A DNA stretch of 64,000 bases, taken from NCBI GenBank assembly GCA_021292105.1, contig CM037868.1, positions 2,347,721 through 2,411,720 of the forward strand, in the 5' to 3' direction. The stretch is from Anadara kagoshimensis (Eukaryota > Mollusca > Bivalvia > Arcoida > Arcidae). Positions within the stretch are counted from its first letter, which is position 1; every line of letters starts with the position of its first letter. Both the position numbers and the translations under genes were made by a program. The notes below the pieces were generated by a model. That model was given only the letters and a program-made list of their open reading frames with translations. It was not told where the DNA came from and ran no database searches. Of this stretch, positions 18,331 through 63,787 are shown piece after piece.

Positions 18331-21300
18331 CTGAAACAAAAAAAAAAAGAGAATACATGTGCCACTTTCTACATACTCCATTGAAGCGCATTGAATTTAG
18401 CGATGTCATCATTTTAGTAATTATCAAGATTACACAATACTGCTAATTTAAACCCCTTGCCAAATTAAATATGAACATAGTGCACAAATGTAAATCAAAA
18501 ATTCTTTAGCAAGCATGGGAAAAAATCTTCTTCATGAATGGTTTTAGTTCAGAAGCATATATGTACATAAAAACAAAATAGATTTTCTGTGAGAGAGATG
18601 GTTGGAATAATAGAGTTTGGAAAACTGCTATTTTAAAGGAATTTTTAAAAAAACTAATTCCTGCTCATATCACCAAATAGATATTGAATTACAACTTTGG
18701 TTTAACTTGACTATAAATAGTATTTCCAGGCGAAAATGTGTGAATCATTGTATGTGCGAGTTAATTTACCTGTGGTGTGGTTAACTTAGAACACATTTCA
18801 CATATACTGTCTACATCTGCGTCTGTTTTCCGAGCTTGTAAAAGCTGCGACGCTTGTATAATAGGATCTAATGTATTCTGCGCTCCCGATTCATTCAGCT
18901 TGTTATCTCTTAACCATTGTTCTAAATGGCTCATGTTGTATCTGAAACAAATAAAATGAAAATTAACAAGTGGGATGCCATTTCAAAACTGCTCCAATTG
19001 AACCACAACTGAAAAATCCCCAACCATGTGCATCATCAAAATATGGACAGCCAATGGCACATCCACTTCACCGAACAAATGTTGATGCGAGGTTCGTAAA
19101 TCATCTGATAAATGACTTTTGAGATAAGTGTCGAACAAAATGCCGGTGGGGACAGAATGAACCAAACACCATGAGTGTGAGAAGAAGAGAGGTGCAAACA
19201 TTCAGCAGGACAAAAATATCATCTGTTAATATTTCTAATTAATCTCGAGAGTGGAGTGTTGGGGCTGTATACCCAAGTAAAGATTCTTTTAACTTGAAAA
19301 ACAATAAATTCAGGTATGGTGGAGGAAACGAAAAAACAACCAAACTTCTTCCACATGACGTCAACAAAAAAGGGTTAAAGAATGGGGAATTAGTCATGGG
19401 GTGAAAAGAAAGGTGGCTGAGGAAGGAGAAATCGTCACAGTGGTTGAAGGGAGGGGGTCTCATATGAACTTGTTATGATACAAACCTTATCTGCATTCCT
19501 TTAGACCAGTTACACATATCCTTTCTCAGTAACAGGTTATTTAGAGCACCTGCCCCACAGAAGTAGTATAACTGTCTAAATATTTGTTTTATAAGTTCAG
19601 GATCTACAGCATGCTGAGCTAGAACTTGACTGTACTTGTTCATCTGAAATACAACAAAACAATATTGATTAAATGGGGTTATACATCCAAGTCAAAATGT
19701 TTCATTTATATTGAGATATATTGAGGTGTTCGGCATGCTGAGCCAGAACTTCGACTGTACTTGTTCATCTGAAACACAACAAAACACTCATTAACTTAAA
19801 AGCTACACTACTTTGTAAAAAGGTCTGAAAATGTTTGACGAAACAGAACAATAGGTGGATATTGTAAGTTGAAATAACAAATTGATTGATTGATTGAATG
19901 GGGTTTTATATTCGAAACAAGAATATTTCACTTATATTGAGATATCACCAGCTATACATGAAGTGTCAGAATGAAGTTCACAGTGGTACCACACAATTTC
20001 CTATAGCAATGCTGCAAAACTATTGTTTCCCATGGATATAGAATTGCACAAGCAAATTCAGTGAATTAGAATACCCTGCCAGCAGGTTCTTTTTTGTGAT
20101 TAGCACTTATGTTCAAAGGGCCATAACTTCCAGGAAAATGAGCAAACCAATCAGGTTACCAATATGTACATCTCCTATCTATATTGATACTTTGCACCAA
20201 GTTTCGTGAAATAATATTTCATAGTTTGGAATTTGGCCCAGACAAGAATATAGGACAGAAGGAAGGACGAACAGAAAATCGAATTTAATATCCCAGTCTC
20301 TCTTTGAAAGGCGGGGATAATAATGAGACCTTTGCCTATCAACAATGATGTGGTACAAGGATTTGCAACATAAATGTTTTCTACTCAATAACATTTATTC
20401 AAAGCTATCACTCATTAAAAAGACCCTGAGAATCTCATTTCTAAATTATGAGTGCTGTGCAAAAGAAAAGTACAAACAATTTCCGATCACAGCAAGTTGT
20501 GGAATAAGCACTTTACTAAATAAGCTATGTAATGAAAAATGCCACAGTGTGATCAGATACTGTATTTCACGCTTCAGACACTTAGAACTTATTCACGGGA
20601 ATAACATATTGCGGTGCAGTGGCCAGTGTTAACAATTTTTGCATACGGATCATCTACATGTATGTCTGAAATATTCACTTTGTATTTAATTTCGCGCTGT
20701 CAAACCGTGAATATAGCGAAATTAAATCCCCAGTGAATAAAAACAACTATATAGTATGTTTGAGCAGTAACTTACACATTTCATTAATGAATCTAAGGAC
20801 AGTTCTCTTGTGTCGTCTATTTCTCTGGAGGTACTGGTTGATCTTCCTCTCATTCCTGACGGCTTACTGGCACTAAGTCCAGCAATGGCTTCATGTTCTA
20901 ACACAGCAGGAACTGAAATAAAGACGAGACTATGATATAAAACACTGAAACGCACATTTTGACATTGTACACTAAGGATAGATATATGAGAGAGTCGAAA
21001 GTCAGACAACTCCACTCAATTTCTTATCACCAGAATAAAGTAAAACATGCTTTATGTACATGGTACATGGGATAGGACTGGAGTAATGATGTTTTATGTC
21101 CCAGTCAAGATTCCTGCACTTATACGGAAGTGGTCAGTTTATGAGATGGTGGAGGAAACTAGAGTGCCTGGAGAAAACCACCAACTTTCAGTAATGGTGT
21201 TTTATGCCAAAGTACAGATTCTTCCAATAGGGGAGTTTAACAATTTTATCTCCCTTGATTACTCTTTATGGTAAGAAAGTGTACCGTCTGCAAGCCAGGG

Positions 21301-24300
21301 GGCATTCTCCTATTACCAGTGATTACCTACAAGTATGAAACTTAGTATATGTAATACTTATGTATGTATCTACATTATATTTTATTTTCTTAAACAATAT
21401 ACTTTTAAGTGTTTCGTCTGAAAATAAATAAATAAATAAATAAGACTGAAAAGTAATCTTGACCCAATGTAATTGAAAAATGATTGATGCAAGGTTGAAT
21501 TATAGTATTTAAATAAATAAATAAATAAATAATAAATTTTGAAACATGACCTTGAATGCCGTATTAATTTACACTTTAAATATTTTAAATCTTTATTTTA
21601 TTTTTTATTTATTTATTTATTTATATATATATTTATTTATTTATTTACTTTTATTTTTCTTTTTTTTTTCATTGACACAAAGTGAAAAAACTTCATGTTA
21701 TGTCTATCGATTAAATTTATTTATTTATTTATTTTAAAGTTTATTTTGGAAAGCAACTTTATAAGGGAATGGTTGGTTTATTTGAAATAAATAGAGATTT
21801 TTTTCTAAAAAGTAATGAATCGTTTACCATTTCATATGCCATTTTTTTTATGAAATCATAAAATACAGATGTATTTTATAAATAAATAAAAAAATATGAC
21901 AACAACAAAAAAAAACGGATAAAATTATTGAAACCATAAAGATATTAAATGTTAAAGTTTGTTTTATTATTTTTTTATTCACATTCTAAATACTTTTACA
22001 ATATTCTCTAACATTCATACATTTCATTTATTAGTTTATAAGTTTAATATTATCTCGTATATTGAATAAGTTTGATGAAGTTTGTGTAATTGATAAAAAC
22101 GATACTTGTAAATTCTTAATGTTATCGATGGATGGTGACCATAAAGGGGTTCAAAGTTTCCTTCAGACGCATCGAGTCGACATTGTCGTTTGTCGGTACG
22201 TGTCATGTATTGAGTCATCCGGTAATGTTGACAGGTGTGCGGAGGTATGTGAATTACGGATACTAATTAAAAGATTAAGACTTCAACACCATAATCTTGG
22301 TAATACATTACGGGATAAACAATTCATCAATTAGAAACTGTTTAATAAACAGCAATGTAACATTTAGATATGAGGAGCATCATACTTCTTGGAGCAAATA
22401 TTGAGTAAAAGAAAGAATAAACTGTAATTGTAATCACCACAAGTACATCATAATTTTGGGTTCGTTTAATTAATTAAAATTGGTTAAATGTAATTCTGTC
22501 AAAGGCAATTACATACATGTATACAGAATATATCGATTCAATTTTCTCCCACATCGGTGTAAACTTTATAAGTTTTGATACTATTTCAAGAAAAGAACAA
22601 CTGGTAAAGTTCTTCCACAAACTTGTAAGTAATCAAGACCGTTTTTCTTGCTATAGGCTGCATAATTTTAGTATCATATCTTTGTCCTGATAGCAAACAT
22701 AACTATTTTATTTTATTTTTAAAGTTTAAAATGCTAAACAAAATATATTAATTATACTTCTTTAATTTTGTTTATTCATTTTTATCATCTTTTAATTTTA
22801 ACTGTTTTTTTATTCTTGGTAGTTTTAATTTCTAAAATATTAAATAATTAAGATATTTGACTAAAAGAAAATATAAATTTATTAGTAAGAAAAAGTTTTG
22901 TCACATAAAATATATATTTATTCATGAATGAATGTAAATATATCCCATTTACGGCAATGTTTAACCATTTAAAAGTGTTACCAGCCTTAGACCATTATTA
23001 AGACTGCCCCCTCGATTGCAAATCACATTCAATCGGGTCCAATCTCGTAAGGTCACGGGCCTTGCGCATGCGTATTAAACAATGTTAAACTCCTCTATTA
23101 TTTTGTGGTGGTCAGTTTGTGGAGAAAATCTGGTAAGTCCTGGATAAACAATGACCTACAGCAAGTAAACTAACAAACTTTTTCACATATAAAGTTGTCC
23201 TGAGAGAAATTCAAAACAATTTGGTACTAGGTACTGTGCATACTTTGGACTAGCTGGTTATGAACCTCCCCCACCCCCAACCCCACCCCCTGGAATAGAA
23301 TGATTAAGCTATCTTTGTTCTTACCTATCATTGGTTGTATAGCTTCCTGCATTAGTTTAATCAACGTCTGATAAATCCACACAGCTAGATCACTGAACAC
23401 TTGTCTATACTCTGATAAATCAAAGTTACGCAGACAATGTTCATTCTGACGGGATGTGTTTTCTGACTGGAATGACTACAAAAAACAAATATATACATTT
23501 TAAATTTAATGTAAGCTGGATTTTTAAAAAGATAACTTTTCATTCCAATTTTTTATTCAAATTTCATTTTATTTAAGGTCAGAAAATACATGTTTTCTTT
23601 CAAAAGATTGATCGATTGAATGGGGTTTTAGGTCCCAGTCAAGAACATCCGACTAATATTGAGAAGCTATATTCTATAGGTGAAGTGACAGAAATTCTTT
23701 TCTCCGTTGTTACACCCTCAATGCTATGTGCAGTGATGGTTCATCAGGGTGCCATGTTTACCATGACACAGGGCATACATTTTCTGTGCCTCTTCTGAAG
23801 GACCCCTAAAGGTCAAATGCTTGGCGAAATAATAGTCACTACCAATCTTCAAGTCATGGACAGACCTAACAAGGTTTTAGAACCCGACCTCCCACATATA
23901 AGACAAGCACATCTATCAACAGATTTGTCTCAATACAGTTATTTTTTTTTTAATTTTTAATTCTAATAACCTTTGCTGTTTTAGTATAGATGTAGCAGAA
24001 ATATTACAGAAAATTCACAATGATGGACATCTCTATGTATGGAAGGAGATATTCATGTTTGAATATTTTACCTTTTCACCACTATATTGTTTTAGTGTAT
24101 GTAATAATCTACAAGTGTTGGCTAACCACAGCGTCACTCTATCTAAGTCTTCATGGTGTTTCTAAAAAAGAAAGAAAAAACAATTACCGTACAGCAAATT
24201 ACCAAACATGTTGCCATTACGTTGCATCCATGCATAGTTAGATGGATGGTGTTTTTGAAAAAGAAAAAAAAATGTACCAAACTTCCCAGACTACTTTTTA

Positions 24301-27300
24301 TTGTATTTACGAGATCTGTTCGCCAGATTGCACAAATTTTTGTATCCCGTCGCAATATATTACTAGATTCCGAAATATATTCCGGAAATTTATTTAAAAT
24401 GTGCATATGTAACAATCAGAATACATATCTCACGATAAAACAGATATATTTCCTTTACGTTCATTTACCAGGTGCACTATTTCCATGCGTACTTATCTCA
24501 TAGAAAAGAAGCCCGATCTTGGCAGAAGTGATAGCAAAGTATGTGTTCACTATCGTGAAACGCCGTACAAAAACTACGTAAATTCTCAATTCGCCTGCTA
24601 ATGATCAGTGGTGATCTCTATGTACAATATCCCAGAAATGACAACATAGATACAGTCCAACCTACCTTAAAGGTCACCTCTATATAAGGGTCACCTGCTT
24701 ATAAAGACCAGTAGAATTGTATCCCAATGGTTATTTGTTTATATTATTTGAACCTGTATATATAAGGGCCACCTGCCTATAAAGTCCACTTTTACTGGTT
24801 CCCTTGAGTGGCCTTTATAGACAGGTTTGACTGTACTGTACATATAAATGTTGTTGTTTTTTCTGACCATACTTCATTTGAATAATCTTATTACTTGATA
24901 AAAGAATCTACTATCAGTGAATTATGCTTTATATCCATAGAAAATCAAATGAATTTGAAGAATGTCTGATATTGTTCACTTCTTACTCTTCACTGAATTT
25001 CGTTATGTGCATCCCAAATTGCCGTATAATATTTCTTTGGTAGGGAAAATGTTGTCGCTATAGGGATTTTACATGTAGAATATGGTATGTTTACACAGTG
25101 AGTGATATCCTTGGTGACATATAACCTCACATGATCAAAAGGATCTGCCACGAGACTAGTTTTGCAACATGTAAAATCCCTGTAGTGGTAACATTTTACT
25201 CTGTGTAGAGATATACTATGGTAGCCTTATCATTCCAATATGCAAGTATATGTAAATCAAATCATGTGATACTTTATACATTTATTGCCTTTGTTTGAGG
25301 GAGATATGAACATTTGTTTACCCGCAACAAGTCATATTTCAAGAGGACGAAGCCCGAGGGAAATGTGACTTGTTAAGGGTGCACAAATGTTCATATCTCC
25401 CTCAAACAAAGGCAATAAATTGTTTTTTATACCGAAAGATAACCATTGTAATAAGAAAGACAGAAAGAAAGAAAATTATTTTTAAAAAAAGACAGCCTGA
25501 AAACATCATTCCTTCTCCGATTCATTGTTTTTTCTCCTATCGGAACTTATCGGAGGCAAACGCTAGAACGTCGTGATTGATTCTCCATCGATGACGTCAT
25601 ATCATTGTGATGTCATAGTGTGTTCCGAAGGGGTGGGATGTGATGTTTTCAGAGGGATACACGATGTTTTCTCCATCCTGATCACATGATCCAACGATCC
25701 AATCAAATTACAGATAGTATCGTATTTTTCTAATGAGGTATAATAATATATATATCTTACCTTGACACACTTTTTAATTCCGTTAATTGTACTGGTGAGT
25801 AAGGATCGGACTTTCTCATCATCATTTATATAGTCTGTATGACGTACACACATAAATAATACATAGGCGGGTAACCCTGGCAACAAACCAATGGCAATCT
25901 TCGGTTTTAAATCTGTAAAAGAGAAAATAATTCATAAGTAACACTGGTAAAAGACTGATGACAAACTTTGGTTTAGAGGAGCAATTCATAAGTAACCCTG
26001 GCAACAGGTTGATGGCAACCTTTGGTTTTAAATCTGTAACAGTGAAATTTCATGTACATGTATAAGCTAAATTAATGTAAAATTCACTTGGAATTTTTCA
26101 TGTAAAATTCATGTTAATTTTACATGAAATTCACTTGAGCAAATTTTGGCTGTGTGCATGTACATTAATATTTACTAAACTTTCCACAGAAACATAAATT
26201 TAAACATATTACCCATTATAAGGTTTTTGATGAGGACACTTTCATCTTCTTTTTTGTATTCTAGCATGCCCATATAATTTCGTTCTCGGTGTTTGATTGT
26301 AGCAACATTACTGACACTAGCTTGTGTTTCATCTTTCTCTAGTTCTGCAGCAATCTCCGCAGCTAAAAAAACAAAACAAAATACATACATCAAAGTCATT
26401 AATAATGGAAATGTAACGATCACAGTGATCACTCCAGTAAAATGTTTACCTGGCTGTGGTGATGACTTTAATTTTTATGTGCAATCTATAATAGCCATGT
26501 CAAAATCATTGACATATTATGACACCTGTATAGCAGAACTGGTCTTAATTAAACACCTTATAGGTAAATATCTTTGGAGTTACAATATTGTTCAGTGTAG
26601 ACAGATTTAGGGTTTCAACCAGAGTTCAGTTTTCAGTTATCACAATCTTACTGTGGCAGGGTTGGTTTTTAGTTTATTTGAGAGTTCTGTGCTTATTGAA
26701 GTCAAAGACGACATTCTCTCAATAGGGGAGAATATAGAGTTCAGTGTTCACAATCTAACAATCAACATTTGTTGTATGTCCAATCATGTAGATAAGTTTA
26801 ATTAGATTTATGGACGTAACAGACATGTCACTGGACTTAATTATCAGGTGTCAACTGCTATATAAGTTGGTGTGATGTGCTAATATTGTATACAGCATAT
26901 ATGTGCCAATTTCATGCTGTATGGTAATTATGGTCTGGTAATGTGAAAAGGTAATGAGGAAAAGACACACTAAATGAAAATATAATTCAGCAAAAATCAC
27001 TAAAATAAAGCCACAACTAAATAAAGTATCTTTACAATGTAATGATGGAACACTTTCTTTATCTGAAAACAACTAACAAAATATAGTTTCTATATTCCCT
27101 ATAAGACAATAATTTTCTTCAAAACATTTATTTCTAAAAATGGTACAGTAAAACCTCGATTCACCGCCACCATTTGTTCAGTCAAATTTTGGCGTTATAA
27201 AGGGGTTTGGCAATAAATCGAGGGAGACCAATAAAGAAAAACTTAAACAAAATAGATTTTGGGACTTTAAAATAGTGTGGCGATAAGCGAGGTGGCAAAG

Positions 27301-30300
27301 TTATCGAGGGGCATTATAACGAGGTTTTACTGTGGTGATAAGCGAGGTGACAAAGTTATCGAGGGGCATTATAACGAGGTTTTACTGTGGTGATAAGCGA
27401 GGTGGCAAAGTTATCGAGGGGCATTATAACGAGGTTTTACTGTGGTGATAAGCGAGGTGACAAAGTTATCGAGGGGCATTATAACGAGGTTTTACTGTGG
27501 TGATAAGCGAGGTGGCAAAGTTATCGAGGGGCATTATAACGAGGTTTTACTGTATATCATTATAAAACAAAAACAATTAAGAGTTTTTTAACAATTAGTA
27601 GATAAACATACATGTATGTATGAGACAAAAAATATTTTTTTTGATTCTACAAAAACTTTGACAACAGAAACTGAGAAAACAAAACTATGTATTGGTAATA
27701 AATAAAATGTATTGGGTTAAACAAATAATTGTAACACTGTTTTGAAAAATATAGTACACAAAAATACTCTTCTACTGATTACAGGTAAAAAATACAGGTA
27801 AAAATAATACAATGAACATGTATATCAAATACTAAATATTATATAAAATAAATCATAATTTACATTAAAATCAAACTAAAATTGTCTTGACTAACTAAAA
27901 TCAATCTTTGGACAATGTCAAGGAAACGACCTTGACACTAAGATGAAAAAGATAGAGGTTTTCTAAATCAATTGGTATTAAAAGTAAAATTCATACATGT
28001 AGAATCTATTTTCTCAAAATGGCATTCAGAACCAACAAAAACTCCATGACAACACATATAAATGATTACAGTAAAACCTCGATATAATGCCCCTCGATAA
28101 CTTTGCCACCTCGCTTATCGCCACACTATTTTGAAGTCCCAAAATCCATTTTGTTTATGTTTTCCTTTATGAGCCTCCCTCAATTTATCGCCAAACCCCT
28201 TTATAATGCCAAAATATGACTGAACAAAAGGTGGCGATGAATCGAGGTTTTACTGTACATGAAAACAAGATGAAAATGCTATGATTCTGTGCAAACCTTG
28301 TAACCTTGACCTATGACCTTTGATTTAGAGAAACTTCATAAGAGTTAACAAATCAGAAAATGAGTTTATTATCAAAATGAAAATGAAATATTTTTTTCGA
28401 CTTCTTGATCTTGCATTCACACGCCAAGTCCCTGAATTTATGATCAATGAGAGCAACAGTGGAAACCTGTATGGAATTTCTACAACACAAACTGCAGAAA
28501 AATGACTTTTTAGACTCCAAGAGATGTCAGAAAAACACTAGATATACAAATGGCAAGAGAATGATTTCTCATATAAATATGACCTGTGATGCTGTAACTA
28601 GAAAGACCAAAGTTGCAAAAGTTTTTTGTTGGGCAAGGATGGGAAGTTGCAAAAGCTGAATTTTTTTTTTTGTATTGGTGAGTCGAAAACCAAAATGGAC
28701 CAATCAAAGAAACAGAATAAATGAACAATACAAACATCCATTCAAGCATGCGTAAATATTATGATCTAGACTAGGGTGACCTTACCAGTGGTGGGACTTA
28801 AAGAGGAAGAAGAAGACAGGATGTAAGCTCTTCTTGGGAATCCTGGGATAGCTTATCAAGACAAAGATGATAGTGAATGATACAACAGACTTAACATGTT
28901 ACGATTAAAAAAAAATGAAAATGAAATTAATGAAAATAGAAAATGTGATCTTCAAAAATCATATATCCATGAATTTGTCTTCTATATGGATACTTTTTAG
29001 ACCAAGTATTGGTACAAAAAAGTCAGAGTTCTAGAACATAAGCCCTGCATATATATAATAGCTGCTTATTATTTTTTAGAAAAAGTAATTTAAAGAATAC
29101 AAAATAAAGTGTGATCAGAGACATTTATAACAAATATATTCGTCTCTGGTGTGATTAATTTTTAAAAGATTTTTACAAATTTGAACATTACACAGATAGT
29201 TTGTTACTTGTAGGGATATTTAAATCTGTGTGGCGATTATGTTTCACAACTGACAAGATATAATAAACTTATATACATGTATTTAATAGCCTACCTTCTC
29301 CTTCTTTCAACCGTTTTGCGTAAACTTTCAACATTTTCTTTAATTTGCGTATCTGGTCTGTTTGTTTATCAACTATCTCTCTCAAATCCTGTAAAAAGAA
29401 AACATTATAGTAATCCTGGTGTTTTACATCACATCAGCTTCTATTTAGTACTTTGTATGAATACTATCATGAAAGAAGCACCTATGGACAACCAACTCTC
29501 TTTTTAAAGTAAAGTCAAACCTGTCTTAAAGGCCATCTCCACATAAGGACCACCTGCTCTTTTAGGTCAGTAAAATTTTATCCCAACTGCTCTTTATTCA
29601 TGTTATTTGAACATGTATATAAAGGCTACCTGCTCATAAAGACCACTTTCATTGATCCCCTTACGTGGCCTTTATAGACAGGCTTGACTGTATACATATG
29701 TTTTAGTGTTATGTTGATGAAGAAAAATCAATCACCCTTATACATTTCACAGTCATAATATAGGAGTGAAATGGAATATTGGTGTTTTACACCCCAGTCA
29801 AGATTCCTTTACTCATATTGAGGCAGTCAGTTTTGGGATTGGTTGAGGAAACTGGAGTACCCAGAGAAAATCACAGAGATTCTGCAAGCAAACTGACAAA
29901 CTTTGTCACATTAGGATCTGCCGGAGCAGGATTCTAACCTAAATGGGCGTTGAGAAGTGCTGTAGATCCTGGCCACTAAAAATGAAAAGAAACAGTTAAA
30001 CAAAGCCTGAAAAGGCATATACATATTGTGATCACTGATCATTTTAAAGTATTAATCACAATCTTGTGATAAACAAGCAAATTCAGTGAATTAGGATCTC
30101 CACCAACAGGTTCTTTTTTGTGATTAGCAAATTATATTCAAAGGGCCATAACTCCTACAAAAATGAGCAAACCAACTCAAGTTAACTCTGGTTAACCATG
30201 TGCCCATCTCATATCAATGTTGATGCTTTGTCCCAAGTTTCGTAAAATAGTGCTTCATAGTTTTGGAGAATTTGTGCAGACAAGATTTTGGACCGACAGA

Positions 30301-33300
30301 AGGCAGGACAGAGGAAACTAAAATTATAATATCCCCCTCTTTCAAATGACCCATTTTTATCATACCAGATTTTCTGATGTCAGCCGTGTGATCTCATGTT
30401 GCATGGTGGCTTCAATCTTGGCATCTGGAGGGAGGGTAAGATTCTGTAAATAAATAAAAATATCTTCATTAATCACAAGAAAATTTTATTGTTGTAACTT
30501 ATTTTTTCATAAAATTGCAAGAACTTTTTCCCATTTCAAAGCAAGGCATGTAATTATTTATGTTAAAAAACATAGATTTCAAATAAAATTTAAAAATAAA
30601 CAGAAATAACGGTGTGGTCTTAAGAACTTTTTGATTATTACCTTTTATCCATTAGTTTTAGTATTGTACAGATAAACAACAAAGATACCAATCCATGTTC
30701 AAATTACAATCATAAAGCAAAGTAAAACGTGAACTTCCATCACAGAAATGAGGCTTGGTGTTCCAGAAGGGTAACCACTTCCTGTTTAGCTAGCTACACC
30801 CGTAATATGATTTATAATGCAACATTTATTTTAAGACTTTCAATAATTCATTCAAATCCAAAGTGATACAAAATAACATCTTTTGCATGTAGAGAACAAT
30901 AGTGTTAAAGCAAGTTGAGTTTTTAAGACATACAAACATCAGTTGCAAGGAAGCAAAGAGCTTTAACAGCCATTCCTGAAAATCATCAGATGAAGCAAAG
31001 TTTTCTTTATTTGAAGCAAAATATGCAGTTAATAGTACATAAATTTAGAATTATCTAGAAATATGGGAAAGAGAGTTGCAGTTAATTCAATATTTCAAAC
31101 AAGAAATCAAACAGACATTTTAGGGGTCAGGTTTGCAGCAAACTCACAGATGCATAATTAAAACTGTAAGAAATACATTCACAATTAGTTGAACAATTAA
31201 AACAAACATTTAAAACTTAATTAATTTAACATGCTTAAAATTCTTAAAAATAGAATATGTAAATTAATTATGGCTAAATTTAGCTCTCATGTCTTGAGAA
31301 TTTACTTTACACCTGTTTGTGTCGAGATGTATTTGATTGACAGGTCTGTTAAAGAATAAATGTGTGTATGTAATATATCTGTGGTATGTGTGATGAACTC
31401 CAAACATCTTAATTTTAACTGCTATAAATGCCTGCATCTTTACTGAAAATTTCTTAACAAGAGGAGCTTTCATTTGACCTTTGACCTTCTGAAAACAAGC
31501 AAAGGGGCTCAATCTGATCATTAACATTCAAAGAACAAGGGCATCCATTTGACCTTTGACATTCAGAGAACAAACAATGGCTTCAATTTTACCTTTGACC
31601 TTCAGAAAATAAACAAGGGACTCTGTTTGACCCTTGACCTTCAGGAGACAAACAGACTTCAAAGTCAAACCATATATTGGTAAGCTTATTTATAGCTACA
31701 GTCAGAAGTCAAATTGATTTTTTTTTTTGAAAGGTAAAAAATAGTCAAGGCAGGATTCCAAATAAGACATGTAGCTTGTCTTTTTGCCATACCGGTATAA
31801 TATTTTGTAAATTCTGTGATATTTTCATAGAATCCATTAAAAGTTTTGTCATTCTGGCCACCCAAATTTTGATCTTTTGGGTCAAGGTGAAATGGAAGCT
31901 TTGTACTAGCAAATAAAACAGAAATATATCAACATGTATATGAGAGTGAAATAGACAGTAAACAATTTTAAACACGAAACATTGTACAAATAGTTACTAA
32001 GCAACAAGACATAATACATGTTTTGTAGAACATTTTTAAAAACACACATCATTCCCTAACAGAATTTTCATCATCCTATCAATACTGTAAACATATTAAA
32101 TTTAGCGACATATTTATTTTCGCGATTTTTGCAATGATACAGTAGCACTTATTTAAATCAACTGCCAAGTTAAATATGATCATAGCGCAAAAGCTGATCC
32201 ACGAGATTACAGCCAAATGAATGAAGTCCATATGAATTTATCCAATTTATAATTTGTGCTAAAATTTGTACGTGCTTACAGTAAGTCATGAAATACTGAA
32301 ATGGGGAAATTCCAATTTCGTTTTTTGATAATTTCTGTAACTCAAAAAAGTGCAAATTTAGTTCATACATGTGAAATCTATTCCACACATTTAAGTGGTA
32401 ACTGAAAATTTAAAACAAAAAATCCCAAAAAAAGAAGTTTTGTATAATTTTATCATTATGCCTTCTGTCTGGCAATCTCTTAATTTTTGTTTCCTTTGCA
32501 ATAATTCCATGATTCAAATAAAAAAATTTCAAGGACTCAAACAAAAAAATATAATTGTAAAATTGTGCAAATTTATTTCATATATGTGAATTCTATCACA
32601 CAGTGAAACTAAAAACTAAACAATTTTAAAACAACTACACACAAAATTAAGAGGATAATACTTTTGTAGTTTAAGGTAATTGAGTTATCATGTGTTTTAT
32701 TGAAATAGGAACAAGATATGTTTAAAACATTACACCACAAGACATGGAAAAGTGTCTTTATGCACAAAAGGACAAATGAGCGCAAGTTCAAATTTAATAA
32801 CCCTCTCTCTCTCTTTGACAATTTGGTGATAAAAAGATTGTTGAATAACTGAAAATTTACTGAAATGTTGTTTAATCAGGTACCTGAATGGATATTTTTA
32901 AATTTGCACCAAAATCTTTAAACCAATGCTTGGGACCATTTGGCCAGTGAAAATTGTGGCTTGATATAAAAAACAAAAAGTATGTTATAAAATAAAGAAA
33001 ATTTAAAATAAATAAAAGAAATGTTATAAACTGAAAAAAATGAAAATACCACTTCCAATGCAATTACTTTAGGTTAAATTTAACCTTTGAACTTTTGAAC
33101 TTTTTTAATAAAAGGTTAATTATAAATGTAACATATTATTATCCATGTACCAACATTTAGTAATAATAAACTTCCTTACTGGTCTGATTCGAAATCAATT
33201 CTGTTGTAGCTTACTCAGAATTCAAAATAAGTTTACACATGGGTTATCTCCCTTAATTGGATGTTTCAATCATGGATTACAGCTTGAACAATATTATAAA

Positions 33301-36300
33301 TTCTGATTTTGGTGGATTTATAAATGGCGTAAAACAAAACATACTGCCTTCTAGGCTAAACATATAATTACAATGGAAATATTTGCTGTGTATTAGTGTT
33401 TGCTATTTTCTCGGTCGAAGATCTAAATTATGAAAGAAAAGGAAACTGTCAAACCCTTAATGGCATTGGTTTTGGGACTTTTGGAACACTGTATCACAGT
33501 AAACTTATTTTGAATTTCTGAGTTTACAAAAATAACATATAACATAGAATGAAAAAAGACAGAAAGGAAAAAAGAAAAAGTTGTTTCAGTGAAGATGCTA
33601 TATATATATATATTTATATGATATATATAGTAGTAGAAACATCTAAAACAATGCAAGTATTAGTATAATAAACAAAAAGTCTAATGACATCTGAATATAT
33701 ACAGGCTTGTAACATAGATACGTACTCGTGTAATACTGTTGTACTGAAGAAAAAATACATACAAGTGTCACATAATAATACTGGTGTGTGTCTGTATGTG
33801 TGTGCACCTGCATGCATTTGTGTTTATAACCAAGATAAGTTTCCGTTTTTAACAAGGTTCAAGAGTACCCATAGATCATTCAGTTCATCACTGTATAACA
33901 TGATACACAATAATGTTTTTGAAAAGAAACTATCCCATTTTTTGTTTTAGCCAGGTTATAATTTAATCATCTAGTCATTGCAAAATTTTACAATTTGCAT
34001 GATAAATGCTAATCTTCCCCCCCCCCTTTTTTTATAAATCATCATATGTATATAAAAATTATGTTCTTTTCAATAAAACAAGATATATAATATTATACTG
34101 CATATTGCCTAGTGGATAAATAATACACACATATATATCCCAGGCAGTGTCTGTCTCTTCCTCCCATTAGGCATGCCCCCTCCCCCCTCCATGTCTATCA
34201 TGCTCAATATTTATGTTTTTCAGTAAGTGATAAATGTGGATTAAAGTGCATTTTCTGAGTAAAATAAATTCTGAATAAATTTATACAAAATGAAAAACGA
34301 ATACAGCAAAGAGTGTCAACATTAAACAAACACATAGACAAGACATATACAGAAACGAAACAGACAAAAAACAAAACAAATAGATTTAATAACAAGTAGA
34401 CAGACAGATGGACAGACAGACAGACAACAGGTGGAAAGAAAGACATAACATGATGTGACTTAACATGATGGACGAATACAGAATTCAGGATAGACAAACA
34501 TTATATAGAGACAAAAAAGACAAAAAACAAAAACAAACAGATATGATAAGAAATAGACAGATAGACAGATAGACAGATAGACAAACGGACAGACAACAGG
34601 TAGTAAGAAAGACATAACACGATGTGACTTAACATGATGGACGAATACAAAATTCAGGATAGACAAACATTATACAGAGACAAAAAAGAACATTTATAAG
34701 ATTTGAAACAAAAGGGGATAATTCATGGTTCCTAAAATTTGTTGTAAAAGTTTCTGGTCCCATTTGCACAAAACATTTACAACTGAGTGTAATTCAATTC
34801 CATCTAAAATACTAGAGAATATTCTAATCAGCGTTTTGCTCAAATCCGGCTTTCAAAAAATGCTTAATTTAATCTCGCACTAATTTTGGACATATATACA
34901 GTACATATACAGATACACTACCTCTCCAATAACCTTCTGTTGTTTTTTGTTCTCTGATTTGAGTTCCTTGATTTCTTTCTTATATTCATCATGTTTCTTT
35001 TTAGCTTCTTTCTCTGTCTTTTGTAGTTGGTTTTCCAATAATCTAAAATAAATAACAAATACAGGTAAAAAAAAGTTTGTAAGTCTGCTGTCGCTAGTAA
35101 ACAAAAAGTCCTCTTTCTTCCTGGACACCTAGTCTCAATGGTAACTATGCTCATAAGCACTAATTTTTTTTTTTTTTTTGCAAACTATTTTTTTTGTAAT
35201 AACATACAAATAAACAAGCAATGTAAGTGTGTCAATTTTAGCACAGAAATCTCTGAACAAAATTATCTGTCATTGTACTCTTATGGTGATTGCTAAAAAA
35301 CAAGAATGCAGTATTGTGTGCTAATATCAATCATGTATATGTTTTAAAATGCTTTTATTGTATTTTGGGAAATTTTCACCTCAATTGATATTTATGATAA
35401 TTGACATTTCAAGATATAAACATAATTTTATTTTCATATCAGATAATAATCATCATCATCTGAAACGATTGGTCAACAGGCCACATGTAGAAGTTAAACT
35501 CAGACAAACTCATGTCATAGGAATTAGAATGCCTTACTTATAGACTTTGGGCAGATATTGACCAAGATTTACCAAATGAACAATTCTATGTAGTTTTACA
35601 ATTACCGGTAAACAATTGAACAGTTTTTGGAACTTGATAAATATGCACGAGAGTCACAATTGACAGAATCTATGCCAAATATCAAACAACAGCCAATACA
35701 AAAATAATTTCATTAATTTTTTTTGTTTCAAAGGACAAATGACAAAAAATTTAAAACCTCATCCAAAATGTATCAAATTTCCACAAAAGTGCAATCATTT
35801 AATAGTTATATTTTGTTTCAAATGAACACACAACCAAAAATTGAAATGTTTATCCAATACAAATCAAATTTCCACAAAAAATATAATCATTTATTAATTA
35901 TACTTTGTATAGCTATATTCACTATTGCACAGTCGATACTGCTTGAAAAATGAACGCTATTTTACCAGTACATATACAACTACATCTAATACACATATAA
36001 TCACTCATTAATTATATCGTATATTGCTGTATTCAGTTCAGATCAGTTTACTGAAAAGAGAAATATTTCATCCATTGTGTCAGCTAACAAAACACTGAAA
36101 AAATATATTAATATGAAATTGAACTAAATGAATTTTAAAGAGATTTTACTTGATTGTATGGTGATTATAACGTAACATGAGCAATCAGGTTGTGTACATA
36201 GACAGTTCTAAATCTGCATGTCATTCTTTGTTGATTGAATATAAATATTTTTTAAAAATTTTTCATTAAAATTGTATCAGTATTATCTACCTGTAAATAG

Positions 36301-38248: not shown

Positions 38249-41200
38249 ACATACACATTTGATTTCTCACTTTTAAAACATCTATAGCTACTCTGTCATG
38301 TTACCGTCCAGATCATGTGATAACAATCAATTATTTTGACAATAAAAAAGTCTCCATGAATCCGAGCTAAACCTAATGTACCTTTACTGAACACATTTAA
38401 CAATTTGTTTTAGAGAAAAGTAATTGCTAGTTGTTTACTAAAAAGATTGATTTTTTTATATTTATTAATACATCACCCCATTTTTTTTCATTTTTTTTTT
38501 TTTTCATTTTTTTTCTTTGTTTTCTTTTACCTGACTTTGTTCTCAACAACATTGACAAATCACCTATACTATACACTGTCATCCATTATTTAAGTTGCTT
38601 TACATGGATAACATTATATAAAACTAAACAAAATTAAATTGATTAAGCTGAATGCATTTTCACTCAAAATAGTTTTTGATACCATGAGAAATTTATATAT
38701 TAATTCCCCCAATTTTATATTTTACCCCAAAATTTCAAGAAAATTATTTTTCAAGAAAAAAACCAGTGTTGTTGTATGTCATAATCATTCACTAAGCTAA
38801 TTTACACACAAGGTGCTTACCCTTCCACAGCACCCAGTCTCATTTCCCTGGTTGAAGTTCATGTGTTTCACCTAATTTGACAGTTTCAAAGTTTTTACTT
38901 TGCTTTGGGATTGTGCTTTGAATATGGATTGGTATGTTTGTTTTTGATTTATAGAATCAATCCCTTACTTGTGGTGCCAGATAGGGAAATCTCAATCTGA
39001 GATCTAATATATATTGGTCCAGAATGAGGCTTATCCAGGAATTAATTAAGTGTATTAAACACAGGTAAAACTTTTAAAATATTTTAACATTTTTTGGCAA
39101 CCTTGTTAATCATTTTGGTTTCTTTATCATTCTATAACCATGGCAACAGCCAATCTTACCCTTCACAAATCTCGCACATTAACACATAAGGTGGCTCTTC
39201 AGGACACATCGTACATTTATCCTCAGTTTGAATACGCTCGATTCGTAAATGTCTCAGACAATCGTCACACGTACACATGTAGTTACTTTCCCATCCTATT
39301 GACGACGTATCTTGTACATACAGATTTTGATTCTCAAAACTATTGGTCACATACAAATCACAATCATGGAATTCGCTATCCGAGACTTCAAAATTATCGG
39401 TCACCATGTCATGATCGACAAATCCAGATTCTAACGTTGATAAAGGCACTTCACAATTTTCCTGACCTTCTGTCAAAATGCACTCACTTTGATTATAATG
39501 ATCGTAAAAACCAGATTCCTGAGTAATAGTTGATAATCGAACACTATTTCTTTCAAAATGTTGGAATTCGCCATTATAAGAATTTCTTCTCTCACCAAGT
39601 CCGGACTCCTTATCATTGAAAACTTCTGAAGATTCAGATTGGGATACAAAATAATGACCAATACTTTTATCTTCAATCCCATCATCCTTTGATGAGGATT
39701 CTGGGATATCGGTTTCATGATTTTGAAAATATCCATCTGGATTTTCATTCAACAAAGTCTCAGAGTGAAATACAGATGCCTGTATATGATTTGTATTATA
39801 ACAATTTCCTTTTATAATATCATTGTTTTCAGCACCAAAATCATTTGATCTGTTACCATGGTTACATAAACAATCCTGTTCACTACAACCATCAATCACC
39901 GTGGCGTCATGTGAATGTTCACTAATTTGCTCAGCAGTAAAATTGTCTTCATTTAACTTTTCCTCGTTTAGAAGAGTATTCTTGTATGGAGAGAAGTTAA
40001 CAATATCTGGTATATTACCATTTTTCCTACTACCCTGTAAAACGAGATCCAAGTTTGAGACAGCTAAATTCAAATATTCTTGTTGATGACAAGGTAACTG
40101 AGTTTCAAACTTTTCATTTTTATCACCAACAGTAGTTCTTTCCGACAACATATTGTTGTCACCATTATACACTAATGTCTTCATTACAGGCTTCTCGTCA
40201 ATCTTCTCAGACTCGACTATCCCTCTTGTTTGAGAAGCACCCATAGTTTCAATCAATGTCTGACGCATACCCTCGGATCTTAACGATTTAAAAATTCCTA
40301 CCTGCATTAAATAAACGACTAGTGTCTTCCAAAAACACTCCTACTACAAAAACATTGCAGAAGTTTATATTTTGTCATAAGAACTTTTATTAACGATTAC
40401 ATAATGATCACCCTTATAAAATAGCGATTTTTTTCTTTCAGGTAACTGTGCAATAATCAAAATACCACTACTCGTTTTACACAAGGTTTTATTAATCTGC
40501 AGTAGGTTGTTTATATTCTGTCATAAGGACTTTTATCACGATTACATAATGATCACCCTTAATACAGCTATTTTTTCTTTCAGGTAACTGTGCAATAACG
40601 AAAATATTCCTTATACACAAGGTTTATCAACCCTAAACACAACACCTCCACTTTTAAAATAATAAATTCCTATATCTGATTTTTTCTTACAGGCTACTGT
40701 AAAATAATGACAATATTCCTTATAAACCCTGTCCATTAATACAAAACTCGACACCTCCACTTTCGAAATAAAAACTTCCCATAACACTTCCTGTACAGAT
40801 CACACTTTGATAATCTTTTTATCGTTTTTCTTTTGAAGGACAGATATAAAATTTAAATTCTGTTGTAAATCACATTATAAACACATGTAACATTCCATCG
40901 AGAAATAAAAAAAACTTTAAATCCTTGTTAAGTGAATTTGTATAAAGTCGGTGACAGATCCTCACACGCAAGAAGACAGCATGGTCCTGATATATTGTTA
41001 TGTTCCGGTAGTACACATTTTTAAAATCACTGGTAAAATTAACATTCTTTTCAATATCTTAACACTGGTATCTTAAAACATTTGTATGACCAAGCAAACA
41101 TGAAAGTGTGAACTTAAAATTAATCCAGTTTTTACCACTGATAATGAGGCTGTTTTGTGAATCTGTATACTGACTCCATCATTATTACTACCGTTACTAA

Positions 41201-50200: not shown

Positions 50201-53200
50201 GCGAGACATAAAAATATTTCATTTCACTTTTGTATACCTGAATTAACTGGTTGGTGGGGTAAAGAGCATTTTTCAAAAGTCTTTCACATTTTGGACTGAC
50301 TGGAGTGAAGTGGATAAACATTTTTATTTCACTTATTTTCAAATCTCTCTAACTTTTTGCAATAGTAGTGGACATTTTACGTTTGACTCAGGATTGTTTT
50401 ACCGATAGATATTAGTGAGTGGTTACTTCATGAATGGTGGAGGAAATAAAAGTGCTGAGTTTACAACCACCACCTTTGGCAAATGAACTGACAAGCTTTA
50501 TCATAAAAAGTTCTGCTAGAATGGGATTCAAACCTAAGTGGTGAAAGACAATGATTTTTGGGACAGAAAACAGGTTCTTGGTAACTAAGTAAATATGCAA
50601 TATTTTGCTGGATATTGAGAAAATTGAAAAGCAAATAAAATTGACTGCACTGATATAAGTGTAGGCTAAAATCTTAGATGTTGGAAGCAACAACTAGGGT
50701 AAGCCAAATGAGTTTTTGTTAATTGGATAATTATTATCAATTCATTTCTAAAATGTTCCCATGCATGAACAATCATAAGAGAGAAAGTAATACAAAAAGT
50801 TTACGTCCGGGTCAGTTTAAAACAACCCTAAATGATAACCCTGGTCATAAGACCACACAGTGAACCACAATACAGAAACCTTAGGTTTTACTCCCAAAAA
50901 GTTTACGTCCGGGTCAGTTTAAAACAACCCTAAATGATAACCCTGGTCATAAGACCACACAGTGAACCACAATACAGAAACCTTAGGTTTTACTCCCAAA
51001 AGTTTACGTCCGGGTCAGTTTAAAACAACCCTAAATGATAACCCTGGTCATAAGACCACACAGTGAACCACAATACAGAAACCTTAGGTTTTACTCCCAA
51101 AAAGTTTACGTCCGGGTCAGTTTAAAACAACCCTAAATGATAACCCTGGTCATAAGTCCACACAGTGAACCACAATACAGAAACCTTAGGTTTTACTCCC
51201 AAAAAGTTTACGTCCGGGTCAGTTTAAAACAACCCTAAATGATAACCCTGGTCATAAGTCCACACAGTGAACCACAATACAGAAACCTTAGGTTTTACTC
51301 CCAAAAAGTTTACGTCCGGGTCAGTTTAAAACAACCCTAAATGATAACCCTGGTCATAAGTCCACACAGGGAACCACAATACAGAAACCTTAGGTTTTAC
51401 TCCCAAAAAGTTTACGTCCGGGTCAGTTTAAAACAACCCTAAATGATAACCCTGGTCATAAGACCACACTACAACATCATTAGGTCTTGGTCCCAAAAAG
51501 TTAAGGTACTGGTCAGATCAATATGGCCCTAAATGATAATCCTGGCCTGGCAACACAATGAACCACATACAAAAACCTTAGGTCTTGGTCTCAAAAAGCT
51601 TAGGTCCTGATCAGATTCAAATGGGCCTAAACGATAACCCTGGTTAAAGGCCACACAATGAACCACAATACAGAAACCTTAGGTTTTACTCCCAAAAAGT
51701 TTACGTCCGGGTCAGTTTAAAACAACCCTAAATGATAACCCTGGTCATAAGTCCACACAGTGAACCACAATACAGAAACCTTAGGTTTTACTCCCAAAAA
51801 GTTTACGTCCGGGTCAGTTTAAAACAACCCTAAATGATAACCCTGGTCATAAGTCCACACAGTGAACCACAATACAGAAACCTTAGGTTTTACTCCCAAA
51901 AAGTTTACGTCCGGGTCAGTTCAAAACAACCCTAAATGATAACCCTGGTCATAAGTCCACACAGTGAACCACAATACAGAAACCTTAGGTTTTACTCCCA
52001 AAAAGTTTACGTCCGGGTCAGTTTAAAACAACCCTAAATGATAACCCTGGTCATAAGACCACACAGTGAACCACAATACAGAAACCTTAGATTTTACTCC
52101 CAAAAAGTTTACGTCCGGGTCAGTTTAAAACAACCCTAAATGATAACCCTGGTCATAAGACCACACTACAACATCATTAGGTCTTGGTCCCAAAAAGTTA
52201 AGGTACTGGTCAGATCAATATGGCCCTAAATGATAATCCTGGCCTGGCAACACAATGAACCACAATACAAAAACCTTAGGTCTTGGTCTCAAAAAGCTTA
52301 GGTCCTGATCAGATTCAAATGGGCCTAAACGATAACCCTGGTTAAAGGCCACACAATGAACCACAATACAAAAACCTTAGGTCTTGGTCACAAAAAGTTT
52401 AGGTTCAGGTCAGATTCAAATGGCCCTAAACGATAACCCTGGTTATAAGGCCACACAATGAACCACACTACAAAAACATTAGGTCTTGGTCTCAAAAAGT
52501 TTAGGTCCTGATCAGATTCAAATGGCCCTAAATGATAAACCCTGGTCATAAGGCCACACAATGAATCAATCTGAGATAAATAGTGTCAAAACAATGATAT
52601 AAATAAAGAATAACAGTATCACTATGATCAATATAAACCCAGGAGGACTGATAATAAAGCCAGAATGACTGATACAAAGCTAGGATAAAAGAAAGCTTCT
52701 TATTTACTTATCACATAGTTAAATAGATATTTCCGGATTTACTGTTGTGTGTGGTGGGTGTCCAGCTTGACCTGGCTAACATAACCTTTAACCTTTGAAC
52801 TTCAACGTAAACTTTAGGATTTTTCAGGCATATTTGAAATATGCAACCAACTGAGACCTCAAAGCATTTTTTAAATTTTCTCTTCCATTAATAATCAGGG
52901 TTCGTACAGACATTTGGACTCAAAATTTAAGGACTTCTTAGGGTCTTTTTAAGGCCTCATTAGCAAATTTAAGGCCTAATCAGAGGGACAATTTTATAAC
53001 AAAAACATTGGTACAAATACAATTAAATCAATAAAACAATTACTTACATGTCCATAGTAATGACACTTGAAGTCGGGGTTGATTTTGGGTGGAGGACCAG
53101 GTACCTTTAAATCGCTCATTTCAATGTGATTTATTTATTTTGATCAGTCTATTTACAATCATTTCATATCAATACCTAATTGGCAAAATTAAAGGGCTTT

Positions 53201-60527: not shown

Positions 60528-60740
60528 CTAAATATCCCACACAAATGTCAAAGAAATATGCAAATGATATGCAGATTAGAAAGCAGCAGAACAATCACCA
60601 CAGAAACATAAAAGAATCACATCAATCACCATAGCAACATGCAAATTAGAAAAAAAAGAGAAAAGCAAAGAGCTGTTAAAAGTTACTAAACTGATTATAT
60701 GATTACAAACAACACAACAAACTACATACACTGTAAAGAA

Positions 60741-62423
60741 TAGAGATGTTATCATATATCGGGATCGCGATAGAGATGTTATCATATCTCAGGATCGCGA
60801 TAGAGATGTTATCATATATCGGGATCGCGATAGAGATGTTATCATATATCGGGATCGCGATAGAGATGTTATCATATATCAGGATCGCGATAGAGATGTT
60901 ATCATATATCGGGATAGCGTTAGAGATGTTATCCTATATCGGGATCGCGATAGAGATGTTATCATATATCGGGATAGCGAGAGCGATGTTATCATATATC
61001 GGGATAGCGTTAGAGATGTTATCATATCTCAGGATCGCGATAGAGATGTTATCCTATATCGGGATCGCGATAGAGATGTTATCCTATATCGGGATAGCGA
61101 TAGAGATGTTATCATATCTCAGGATCGCGATAGAGATGTTATCCTATATCGGGATCGCGATAGAGATGTTATCCTATATCGGGATCGCGATAGAGATGTT
61201 ATCCTATATCGGGATCGCGATAGAGATGTTATCCTATATCGGGATCGCGATAGAGATGTTATCCTATATCGGGATCGCGATAGAGATGTTATCCTATATC
61301 GGGATCGCGATAGAGATGTTATCATATATCGGGATCGCGATAGAGATGTTATCCTATATCGGGATCGCGATAGAGATGTTATCATATATCGGGATCGCGA
61401 TAGAGATGTTATCATATATCGGGATGGCGATAGAGATGTTATCATATATCGGGATGGCGATAGAGATGTTATCATATATCGGGATCGCGATAGAGATGTT
61501 ATCATATATCGGGATCGCGATAGAGATGTTATCATATATCGGGATCGCGATAGAGATGTTATCATATATCGGGATCGCGATAGAGATGTTATCATATATC
61601 GGGATCGCGATAGAGATGTTATCATATATCGGGATGGCGATAGAGATGTTATCATATATCGGGATCGCGATAGAGATGTTATCATATATCGGGATCGCGA
61701 TAGAGATGTTATCATATATCGGGATCGCGATAGAGATGTTATCATATATCGGGATCGCGATAGAGATGTTATCATATATCGGGATCGCGATAGAGATGTT
61801 ATCATATATCTGGATCGCGATAGAGATGTTATCATATATCGGGATCGCAATAGAGATGTTATCATATATCGGGATCGCAATAGAGATGTTATCATATATC
61901 GGGATCGCGATAGAGATGTTATCATATATCGGGATCGCGATAGAGATGTTATCATATATCGGGATCGCGATAGAGATGTTATCATATATCGGGATCGCGA
62001 TAGAGATGTTATCATATATCAGCACAACGATAATCGTCGCCAAGGATTTGTCGATGGCAATATCGTGAAACTGTTTACATCAAGATATTGTGGAACCCTA
62101 TTACTTACAATAACATTCTTTGAAATCATTGCATAACATGTGTACTGATCATGGTGAAGACAGATTAAACATGTGGTTTTTCCGTGAACCACAAGTAAAT
62201 CACTGCTCACAAATTTAATTCAGTTAATCTTCAAATAACTTTAATAAAATTTGTAATTTCATATCTTATTATTCTTTAATTATATTTGAATTTATTGCAG
62301 TCCAGTGAAAACCCAGCCCATCTTTTAAGCATATTCATCTGAAAATAATGCAATAAAATCGCGACATGTCGTAAATTTTTGGCAATATTGTGATACCAGT
62401 TTTTGTCCACAATAACATCTCTA
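60741..62423. mobile_element. hAT-like non-autonomous element with 42 tandem 30-bp copies of its left terminus
   Basis: Ends TAGAGATGTTAT and ATAACATCTCTA are perfect 12-bp inverted repeats, and the start TAGAG fits the hAT terminal pattern. Flanks gtaaagaa (60733-60740) and gtaatgaa (62424-62431) look like an 8-bp target duplication with one mismatch. Units of exactly 30 bp (tagagatgttatcatatatc + gggatcgcga) run from 60741 to 62000 without an indel, then a partial 43rd begins at 62001. Only substitutions vary: cctatatc units cluster at 60925-61380, plus a few caggatc and gggatggc units. The right part (62021-62423) is unique and non-coding. Confidence 0.88.
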
Positions 62424-62829: not shown

Positions 62830-63370
62830 TATTAACAACTCAGTAATTGTCACAGGAAGAAGTAGACGAGCAGCAGTCCAGAAGATGGCCCAAGCAGCAG
62901 AAAGATCATCATGCTGGGTGTGGATGAAGAGGGACATTAGTAGCTGGATACCCACCACCAACGCGCAGTGACTGATCACCACTGTGGACCCCCCATCCTG
63001 AGAGTGTACCGAGCTAGGGGTCGAAACACACAATGAGGGATGGCCTCGGCTGAGGACGTTGGCGGTGCAGCAGCAGTACCAACACAGCTGTATGTAAGTT
63101 ATTTTCAACTGGAGTACCAGTGACGGCTAGGAAAGACTGGCTGACAACCAAGAATAGATTGGTGACGTCTGGAAAGACAGGTGGCATCCAGGGAAGACTG
63201 GAATATGGGTGTGAAGGGTTGGCAGCCCAACACACAGTTCCTGTGAGGGAACGCCAAAGCAAGCTACAACACAGACAAAAGAGCAACACCCCCAGGGTCT
63301 TCCGAGAGGGGGGGAGGATGAAAGACCCAGTATTACGGATTCAACGGTAACAACTCGGCTCGTTCAACGG
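62830..63370 (+). mobile_element. LINE-like element, 5' untranslated or leader part
   Basis: Base composition becomes clearly richer in G+C than the surrounding intron at about 62830 and stays so to the window end, which marks the probable left border. Short frames here (for example 63120-63350) precede the finger-containing frame but cannot be assigned to a domain. Confidence 0.6.
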
Positions 63371-63787
63371 ACATTGGCAGGATTACCGGCAGAAACAAGA
63401 TGTCATTGTGGGAAAGTGTGCAAGAATCTGAGGGGTTTGAAGATACACCAAGCAAAGGCTAAATGTCGTTCTGAGAAGCAACAGGAGGAACGCACAGGTA
63501 ATACTGATCAGTCGGAGAAGGACCACAGACAGGATGAACACCACAGCACTGAGGACCTTTTACTAACTGATGCTACTCAGACCAACAAAGAGCCAGAACC
63601 AATCGATTCTAACCGAGAACAGGCTAACACAGAACCATCAAGAGAGAACAGAAAACCAGCAGTGGACTGGCCACCAACAGATGATAAGAGATGGGAAGCA
63701 TTTGACAATGACCTAGATAACGTCTGTAGGAGATGTACAGAGGAAATTGACAGCATTGACAACAATAGTATACTCAGTAGGTGCTGA
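63371..63787 (+). pseudogene. LINE-like ORF, N-terminal part with Cys/His finger
   Basis: The frame runs through GLPAETRCHCGKVCKNLRGL and KIHQAKAKC: C-x-C-x3-C followed by H and C, a finger that I know from N-termini of invertebrate non-LTR retrotransposon ORFs. It is followed by a polar Glu/Gln-rich region. It stops at 63787 because of a one-base frameshift near 63762. The frame is open upstream of 63371, and no ATG is evident near its beginning. Reverse transcriptase, if present, lies beyond the window. Confidence 0.7.

Follow-up and report, generated by a model that had tools for sequence, protein, structure and literature searches.

Does a long open frame lying inside an intron of a class V myosin gene encode the start of a second, motorless product of that gene? 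Class V myosins reduced to their tails serve in the laboratory to block cargo transport. The question arises for the MYO5 gene of the ark shell Anadara kagoshimensis, whose 3' part is carried by the minus strand of the window, i.e. the 64,000-nucleotide stretch of contig CM037868.1 (assembly GCA_021292105.1) analysed here. The frame very probably represents an alternative 5' coding exon of bivalve MYO5, whose transcription would start within the intron and which would give rise to a motorless MYO5.

The intronic open frame and its host gene

The MYO5 intron that holds the exon spans positions 59736-35043 (24,694 nt). The minus strand contains a frame of 394 open codons (40340-39156, with stop), directly preceded by an in-frame TAG at 40343-40341. 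The ATG at 40307 delimits an exon of 1148 nt, which leaves two nucleotides after the last full codon and hence ends in phase 2. An earlier note on this DNA had claimed a 382-codon open exon on the strand of MYO5 in a 24.7-kb intron of that gene, with an in-frame stop ahead of the ATG, and all of these elements were verified. The length of the frame is far beyond simulated chance. In 200 introns simulated with a second-order Markov model and read stop-to-stop in six frames, the longest open frame has a mean of 125 codons and a maximum of 225, and the longest one in the real intron, the 394-codon frame set aside, has 139 codons.

The GC contents at the three codon positions of the exon (0.449, 0.332 and 0.288) and of the MYO5 tail (0.466, 0.322 and 0.341) resemble each other. 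Codon log-odds, for which the tail of this same gene was the only training set, weakly favour the frame (mean of 0.036 for frame 0 versus -0.176 and -0.456). The encoded peptide is acidic, with a pI of 4.42 and a net charge of -44. Searches with the exon returned 0 Pfam families and 0 PDB chains at E <= 10, and the open frame matches the 1.115-Gb genome once at E <= 0.001. With this single genomic match and no Pfam family, an origin from a transposon or a repeat is unsupported. When the conserved module at the end of the exon (see below) was compared with the genome, one further match was obtained, at chance level (E = 4.26, 33% over 37 residues).

We mapped a motor-bearing MYO5 of Tegillarca granosa (P0014) by tblastn against the window and seven upstream stretches. 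It maps in order on the minus strand, from extended coordinate 122820 to 18825, and this co-linearity indicates that the motor exons lie upstream within the same MYO5 gene. The locus has the make-up of a class V myosin gene: the exons for motor, neck and DIL tail follow one another co-linearly on a single strand. Its shared tail is identical to that of T. granosa, also of the Arcidae, at 391 of 403 positions.

Joining the intronic exon to the next 11 MYO5 exons (Table 1) yields a product of 895 residues that runs to the MYO5 stop, the same count as in the earlier note, and all 11 junctions between the 12 exons are GT/AG with matching phases. DIL (PF01843) is above cut-off in two exons of this product, which thus possesses a globular tail. 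The myosin motor (PF00063) is absent, and the product begins beyond the mapped motor exons, on their downstream side. Judged from DNA and gene models, the predicted product is a headless isoform, since it has its downstream exons in common with a motor gene and is devoid of the motor. Near 19768, we observed a partial and diverged tandem copy of the start of the MYO5 exon 19643-19486, including its acceptor.

Table 1. Coordinates in the window of the putative alternative exon, its signals and the MYO5 exons
Feature	Position	Strand	Remarks
Putative alternative 5' coding exon of MYO5	39160..40307	-	382 codons + 2 nt; acidic, mostly disordered, ends in conserved module
Candidate splice acceptor	40282..40321	-	first exon base 40301, phase 0
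Conserved six-cysteine module, CxCxxC ... C ... CxxC	39161..39305 (approximate)	-	residues ~335-382, reaches donor
Splice donor AAGG/GTAAGA of alternative exon	39154..39163	-	phase 2
MYO5 exon upstream (motor-bearing transcript, outside motorless product)	59737..59930	-	ends QKELN + 2 nt, phase 2
First shared MYO5 tail exon	34922..35042	-	joined frame; requires phase 2
Shared MYO5 tail exon	30366..30443	-	joined frame
Shared MYO5 tail exon, distal coiled coil	29295..29388	-	joined frame
Shared MYO5 tail exon	26213..26362	-	joined frame
Shared MYO5 globular-tail exon	25761..25912	-	joined frame
Shared MYO5 globular-tail exon	24072..24161	-	joined frame
Shared MYO5 globular-tail exon	23325..23475	-	joined frame
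Shared MYO5 globular-tail exon	20776..20912	-	joined frame
Shared MYO5 globular-tail exon, DIL start	19486..19643	-	joined frame, DIL search
Shared MYO5 globular-tail exon, DIL	18770..18941	-	joined frame, DIL search
Last MYO5 exon, contains stop codon	18094..18330	-	joined frame

Genome searches found what appears to be a single MYO5 gene. The tail-only protein of Pecten maximus described below gives at least 12 genomic matches at E <= 0.001, all 12 of them in this MYO5 locus. A DIL search gives at least 7, two of them in the MYO5 locus and the other five on C9 and C5; these five are absent among the genome matches of the Pecten protein. Only the best candidates were scored, and the counts are therefore lower bounds.

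Several other features were observed around the locus. A 30-bp minisatellite of 42.7 copies (96% matches) occupies positions 60740-62020; because its period keeps several frames open on both strands, the long open frames found there (60703-62136 and others) are repeat artefacts. The same MYO5 intron harbours a 102-bp tandem array of ~17.7 copies (50793-52565). Upstream of the window (extended coordinates 92208-92929, 102432-103315 and 104018-104400 of G000:C12), the ends of MYO5 motor exons are repeated many times in the adjacent introns, with a spacing of 82 or mostly 64 bp and 67-95% identity to Tegillarca MYO5, and these minisatellites seem to have arisen from exon ends. Finally, a 190-aa open frame on the plus strand (63215-63787) contains a zinc-finger-like stretch, CHCGKVCKNLRGLKIHQAKAKC. 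Pfam gives no match above cut-off for it, and our guess is that it is perhaps a piece of a mobile element.

Splice sites and the possible start of a transcript

The exon had been claimed to end in a GTAAG donor in the phase needed by the next MYO5 exon, which proved right for both the site and the phase. Scored with a matrix built from ten donors of this MYO5 gene, the donor reaches 11.5, compared with 6.2-11.8 for the ten donors themselves, and it is alone in reaching that score among the 1423 GT sites between 36000 and 59000.

At the 5' side, the best acceptor near the edge of the exon has 40301 as its first exon base. Its score of 8.7 is at the 99.6th percentile of the AGs of the intron (99th percentile, 5.9), and the gene's own acceptors score 10.6-21.6; these scores are rough because the matrix comes from just 11 acceptors, all in this one MYO5 gene. 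As this acceptor lies 6 nt inside the ATG, the true start may sit in another exon upstream, and if the acceptor is used, the alternative exon may start at 40301 rather than at the ATG at 40307.

One could envisage that the exon, or part of it, is an optional cassette of full-length MYO5, either as an in-frame insertion of the module or as a poison exon cutting the motor protein short. The exon is on the MYO5 strand with a compatible donor phase, and the motor-transcript exon upstream, spliced to the high-ranking acceptor at 40301, reads R and then a stop after this one codon, as a poison exon would. Of the 76 AG sites from 40343 to 39165, 18 preserve the open motor frame, including 39339 shortly upstream of the module. 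However, all 18 score -3.4 or less, and 39339, the best of them at -3.4, is only at the 80th percentile of intron AGs and far from the range of the MYO5 acceptors. An in-frame cassette could thus arise solely through weak sites and is disfavoured. A poison exon would leave the conserved reading frame of the module unexplained, and the module is found in none of 13 P-loop proteins and the P-loop in none of the five module proteins, in searches covering sizes up to 2863 aa. We therefore regard a cassette as improbable.

The stop that follows splicing to 40301, together with the weakness of the in-frame acceptors, favours a start of transcription inside the intron, for which the splice phases provide indirect support. 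Transcription would begin shortly before the ATG, or else at an additional small first exon that is spliced to 40301, and the exon would be transcribed in the host from an intronic promoter. Our inspection of this region identified no promoter; TATAAA occurs at 40369 and 40515 and is frequent by chance in AT-rich DNA. Directly upstream of the exon, a 109-bp unit is present twice (40570-40783, 77% matches), and a stretch resembling it recurs closer to the ATG. This may be a regulatory region or a mere repeat.

Predicted motorless relatives and the six-cysteine module

We searched 5.8 billion proteins with the joined product, using words from residues 1-400. Among 1864 candidates, the sole hit at E <= 10 is isoform X3 of Pecten maximus LOC117315603, a protein of 1133 aa with a DIL domain. 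With the module region of this protein as query, 5 of 89 candidates match, query included (1133-1636 aa), from P. maximus, Mytilus coruscus, M. galloprovincialis, M. edulis and M. trossulus. The module and coiled coil of the M. galloprovincialis protein matched 18 of 70 candidates, namely the same five module proteins and 13 motor-bearing MYO5s (P0006-P0018) from a mussel, oysters, scallops, Tegillarca, Potamilus, Ruditapes, Dreissena and Mya and from one ENA record. By the length rule applied, these searches spanned ~623-1982 aa for the Pecten query and 900-2863 aa for that of M. galloprovincialis.

The five module clusters share the last ~45 residues of the exon and the same junction to the MYO5 tail, and the window product has 454/557 identities with the Pecten protein from the module through the C-terminus. 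Pfam detects DIL and no myosin head (PF00063) in all five module proteins. Over the 18 proteins, the P-loop GESGAGKT is absent from 5/5 module proteins, and the module from 13/13 P-loop proteins. Ahead of the LLENQLQ sequence of the tail, the module proteins all read CEICEG or CEICEE, whereas the motor-bearing MYO5s in which this sequence was located (11/13) read QKELNR in nine cases and QRDLNR or QRDIIR in one case each. The two alternatives share a single junction, which matches the prediction for a gene with alternative first exons. The tail-only product claimed in the earlier note thus has counterparts in the Pecten and four Mytilus gene models, which join the conserved end of the exon to the MYO5 tail without a motor. 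Given these matching models in mussels and a scallop, the second MYO5 product looks real and long conserved rather than accidental.

These homologues are database gene models, and a nested gene or an unrelated frame might have been misjoined to the MYO5 tail, by prediction programs in mussels and scallop and by the earlier note in the ark shell. The names in the public records of scallop and mussel tail-only proteins (P0001, P0003 and P0005) are empty or misleading, namely 'uncharacterized protein' and 'fibrinogen-binding protein-like', showing that the proteins went unrecognised. We nevertheless hold such an annotation artefact to be very improbable: junction and module recur in differently named models from three bivalve orders (Arcoida, Pectinida and Mytilida), the donor is the best of its 1423 GT sites, and conservation reaches up to it.

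Even less probable in our view is that the mussel and scallop proteins come from a separate, partial MYO5 duplicate rather than being isoforms. There is a plant precedent for this in HDK (excerpts of PMC3935558), and M. galloprovincialis has two protein models under different names. However, the tails of its tail-only (P0003) and full-length (P0006) proteins are identical at 517/517 positions, and the host genome has one MYO5 tail. Both P0003 and P0006 are listed with a longest contig of 86,550,376.

The motorless proteins differ in their N-terminal parts. The residues preceding the tail number from 383 in the window product up to 1119 in P0003. P0002, P0003 and P0005 have three differing short starts ahead of a common GGTEV, so that there may be more alternative first exons. 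All taxa with the module belong to the Pteriomorphia. Within the size ranges covered, the searches yielded the motor-bearing MYO5 of oysters, Ruditapes, Dreissena, Mya and Potamilus but no module protein from any of them. As oysters are also Pteriomorphia, loss or fast divergence of the exon is likely in them, if the exon is ancestral.

The module has 33/44 identities between the window and Pecten, and 32, 30 and 29 of 48 between the window and P0002, P0003 and P0005, respectively. Five distinct module sequences agree throughout at 24 of 50 columns, including the six cysteines, and conservation extends right to the splice donor. A profile of the module searched against the PDB gave LysW as its sole match (E = 1.5 over 13 residues). 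The module was matched to no known zinc-binding family, whether in Pfam or among solved structures. Being invariant, its six cysteines probably bind metal, and the conserved module would be newly evolved.

Upstream of the module, no alignment of the exon rises above those of shuffled sequences: the real scores are equalled or exceeded by 66, 51, 126 and 171 of 200 shuffles and, for the last 100 residues preceding the module, by 442, 68, 143 and 144 of 1000. The constraint is therefore seen in ~45 residues only. ESGF-like motifs upstream of the module were rejected as signs of homology, as they do not exceed shuffles. Predicted structures are of low confidence, both for the exon (6 sequences; mean pLDDT of 33, with ~50-66 in the module) and for the Pecten protein (17 sequences; mean pLDDT of 40, below 50 for residues 1-614). 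The Pecten model shows a helix that begins at residue 610 (with pLDDT < 50 as far as 614) and continues along the coiled coil; the last part of the module may thus already form the beginning of the coiled coil.

The lack of protein-level conservation in the bulk of the exon would also suit a real transcript that yields hardly any protein, or none, and works at the RNA level or through transcriptional interference. For the short transcript of maize O1, excerpts of PMC3935558 report that the headless transcript was found and the protein was undetectable, which indicates that a transcript need not mean a protein. The 24 invariant protein columns of the module and the maintenance of a 394-codon open frame make this highly unlikely for the bivalve exon.

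Headless myosins and the putative role of the predicted motorless product

The predicted motorless MYO5 is best filed with the headless-myosin variants, and it is new for animal class V in the literature searched; none of the papers listed by our open-access searches describes a naturally motorless class V myosin from an animal. In mouse, headless Myo10 is transcribed from starts in intron 19 and spliced to the common downstream exons, and a role as natural dominant negative or scaffold has been hypothesised for it (excerpts of PMC5725431). Like the proposed bivalve protein, it lacks the motor, comes from an unconventional myosin gene of an animal and has intronic starts. It is of class X, however, and its specific exon is described in that text as entirely 5' UTR, with one predicted form adding a single M, so that it contributes no new sequence, whereas the MYO5 exon would contribute 382 residues, the conserved cysteine module among them.

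Plant class XI myosins are called analogous to animal and fungal class V myosins in PMC3935558, from which we draw on excerpts for the plant proteins. The maize O1 headless product has kept the coiled coil and DIL and lost the motor and IQ, as is predicted for the bivalve protein. The O1 headless protein was undetectable, and HDK of Arabidopsis and Brachypodium differs in being described as a partial gene duplicate. The excerpts make no mention of a cysteine-rich extension in plant headless class XI proteins.

The Myo5a globular tail domain (GTD) inhibits the motor, and tail constructs made of the GTD and the preceding middle-tail exons compete for melanophilin and act as dominant negatives (excerpts of PMC11189624). 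These constructs are motor-free tails like the bivalve product, but they are artificial, whereas in the bivalve a natural exon would encode such a protein. The motor-bearing bivalve myosin-Va proteins (P0006-P0018) share the same tail from LLENQLQ onward; they differ by their P-loop and by lacking the module, in 13/13 cases.

The motorless MYO5 would consist of an acidic, disordered N-terminal arm and the six-cysteine module, followed by the distal coiled coil and the globular tail that binds cargo. It would dimerise through the distal coiled coil, perhaps with a metal staple at the cysteines, and bind the partners of MYO5 through its globular tail without moving them. It might compete with the motor for cargo, brake the motor heads through its globular tail or tether cargo. 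As a headless isoform, it may act as a negative regulator or a scaffold. On balance, we lean towards the view that pteriomorph bivalves, the ark shell, scallop and mussel at least, have an ancient and dedicated motorless class V tail protein as second product of MYO5, in which the intronic exon encodes a disordered, fast-evolving arm and a new clasp of six cysteines that probably binds metal and is joined directly to the start of the distal coiled coil. This protein would oppose the motor as a natural competitor for adaptors or as a stationary tether.

If such a protein is natural and conserved, MYO5 would come with a separately controlled antagonist or scaffold of its own. Animal class V myosins would then gain a counterpart to headless Myo10 together with a newly evolved, conserved module, and database proteins so far named 'uncharacterized' or 'fibrinogen-binding protein-like' would gain an identity.
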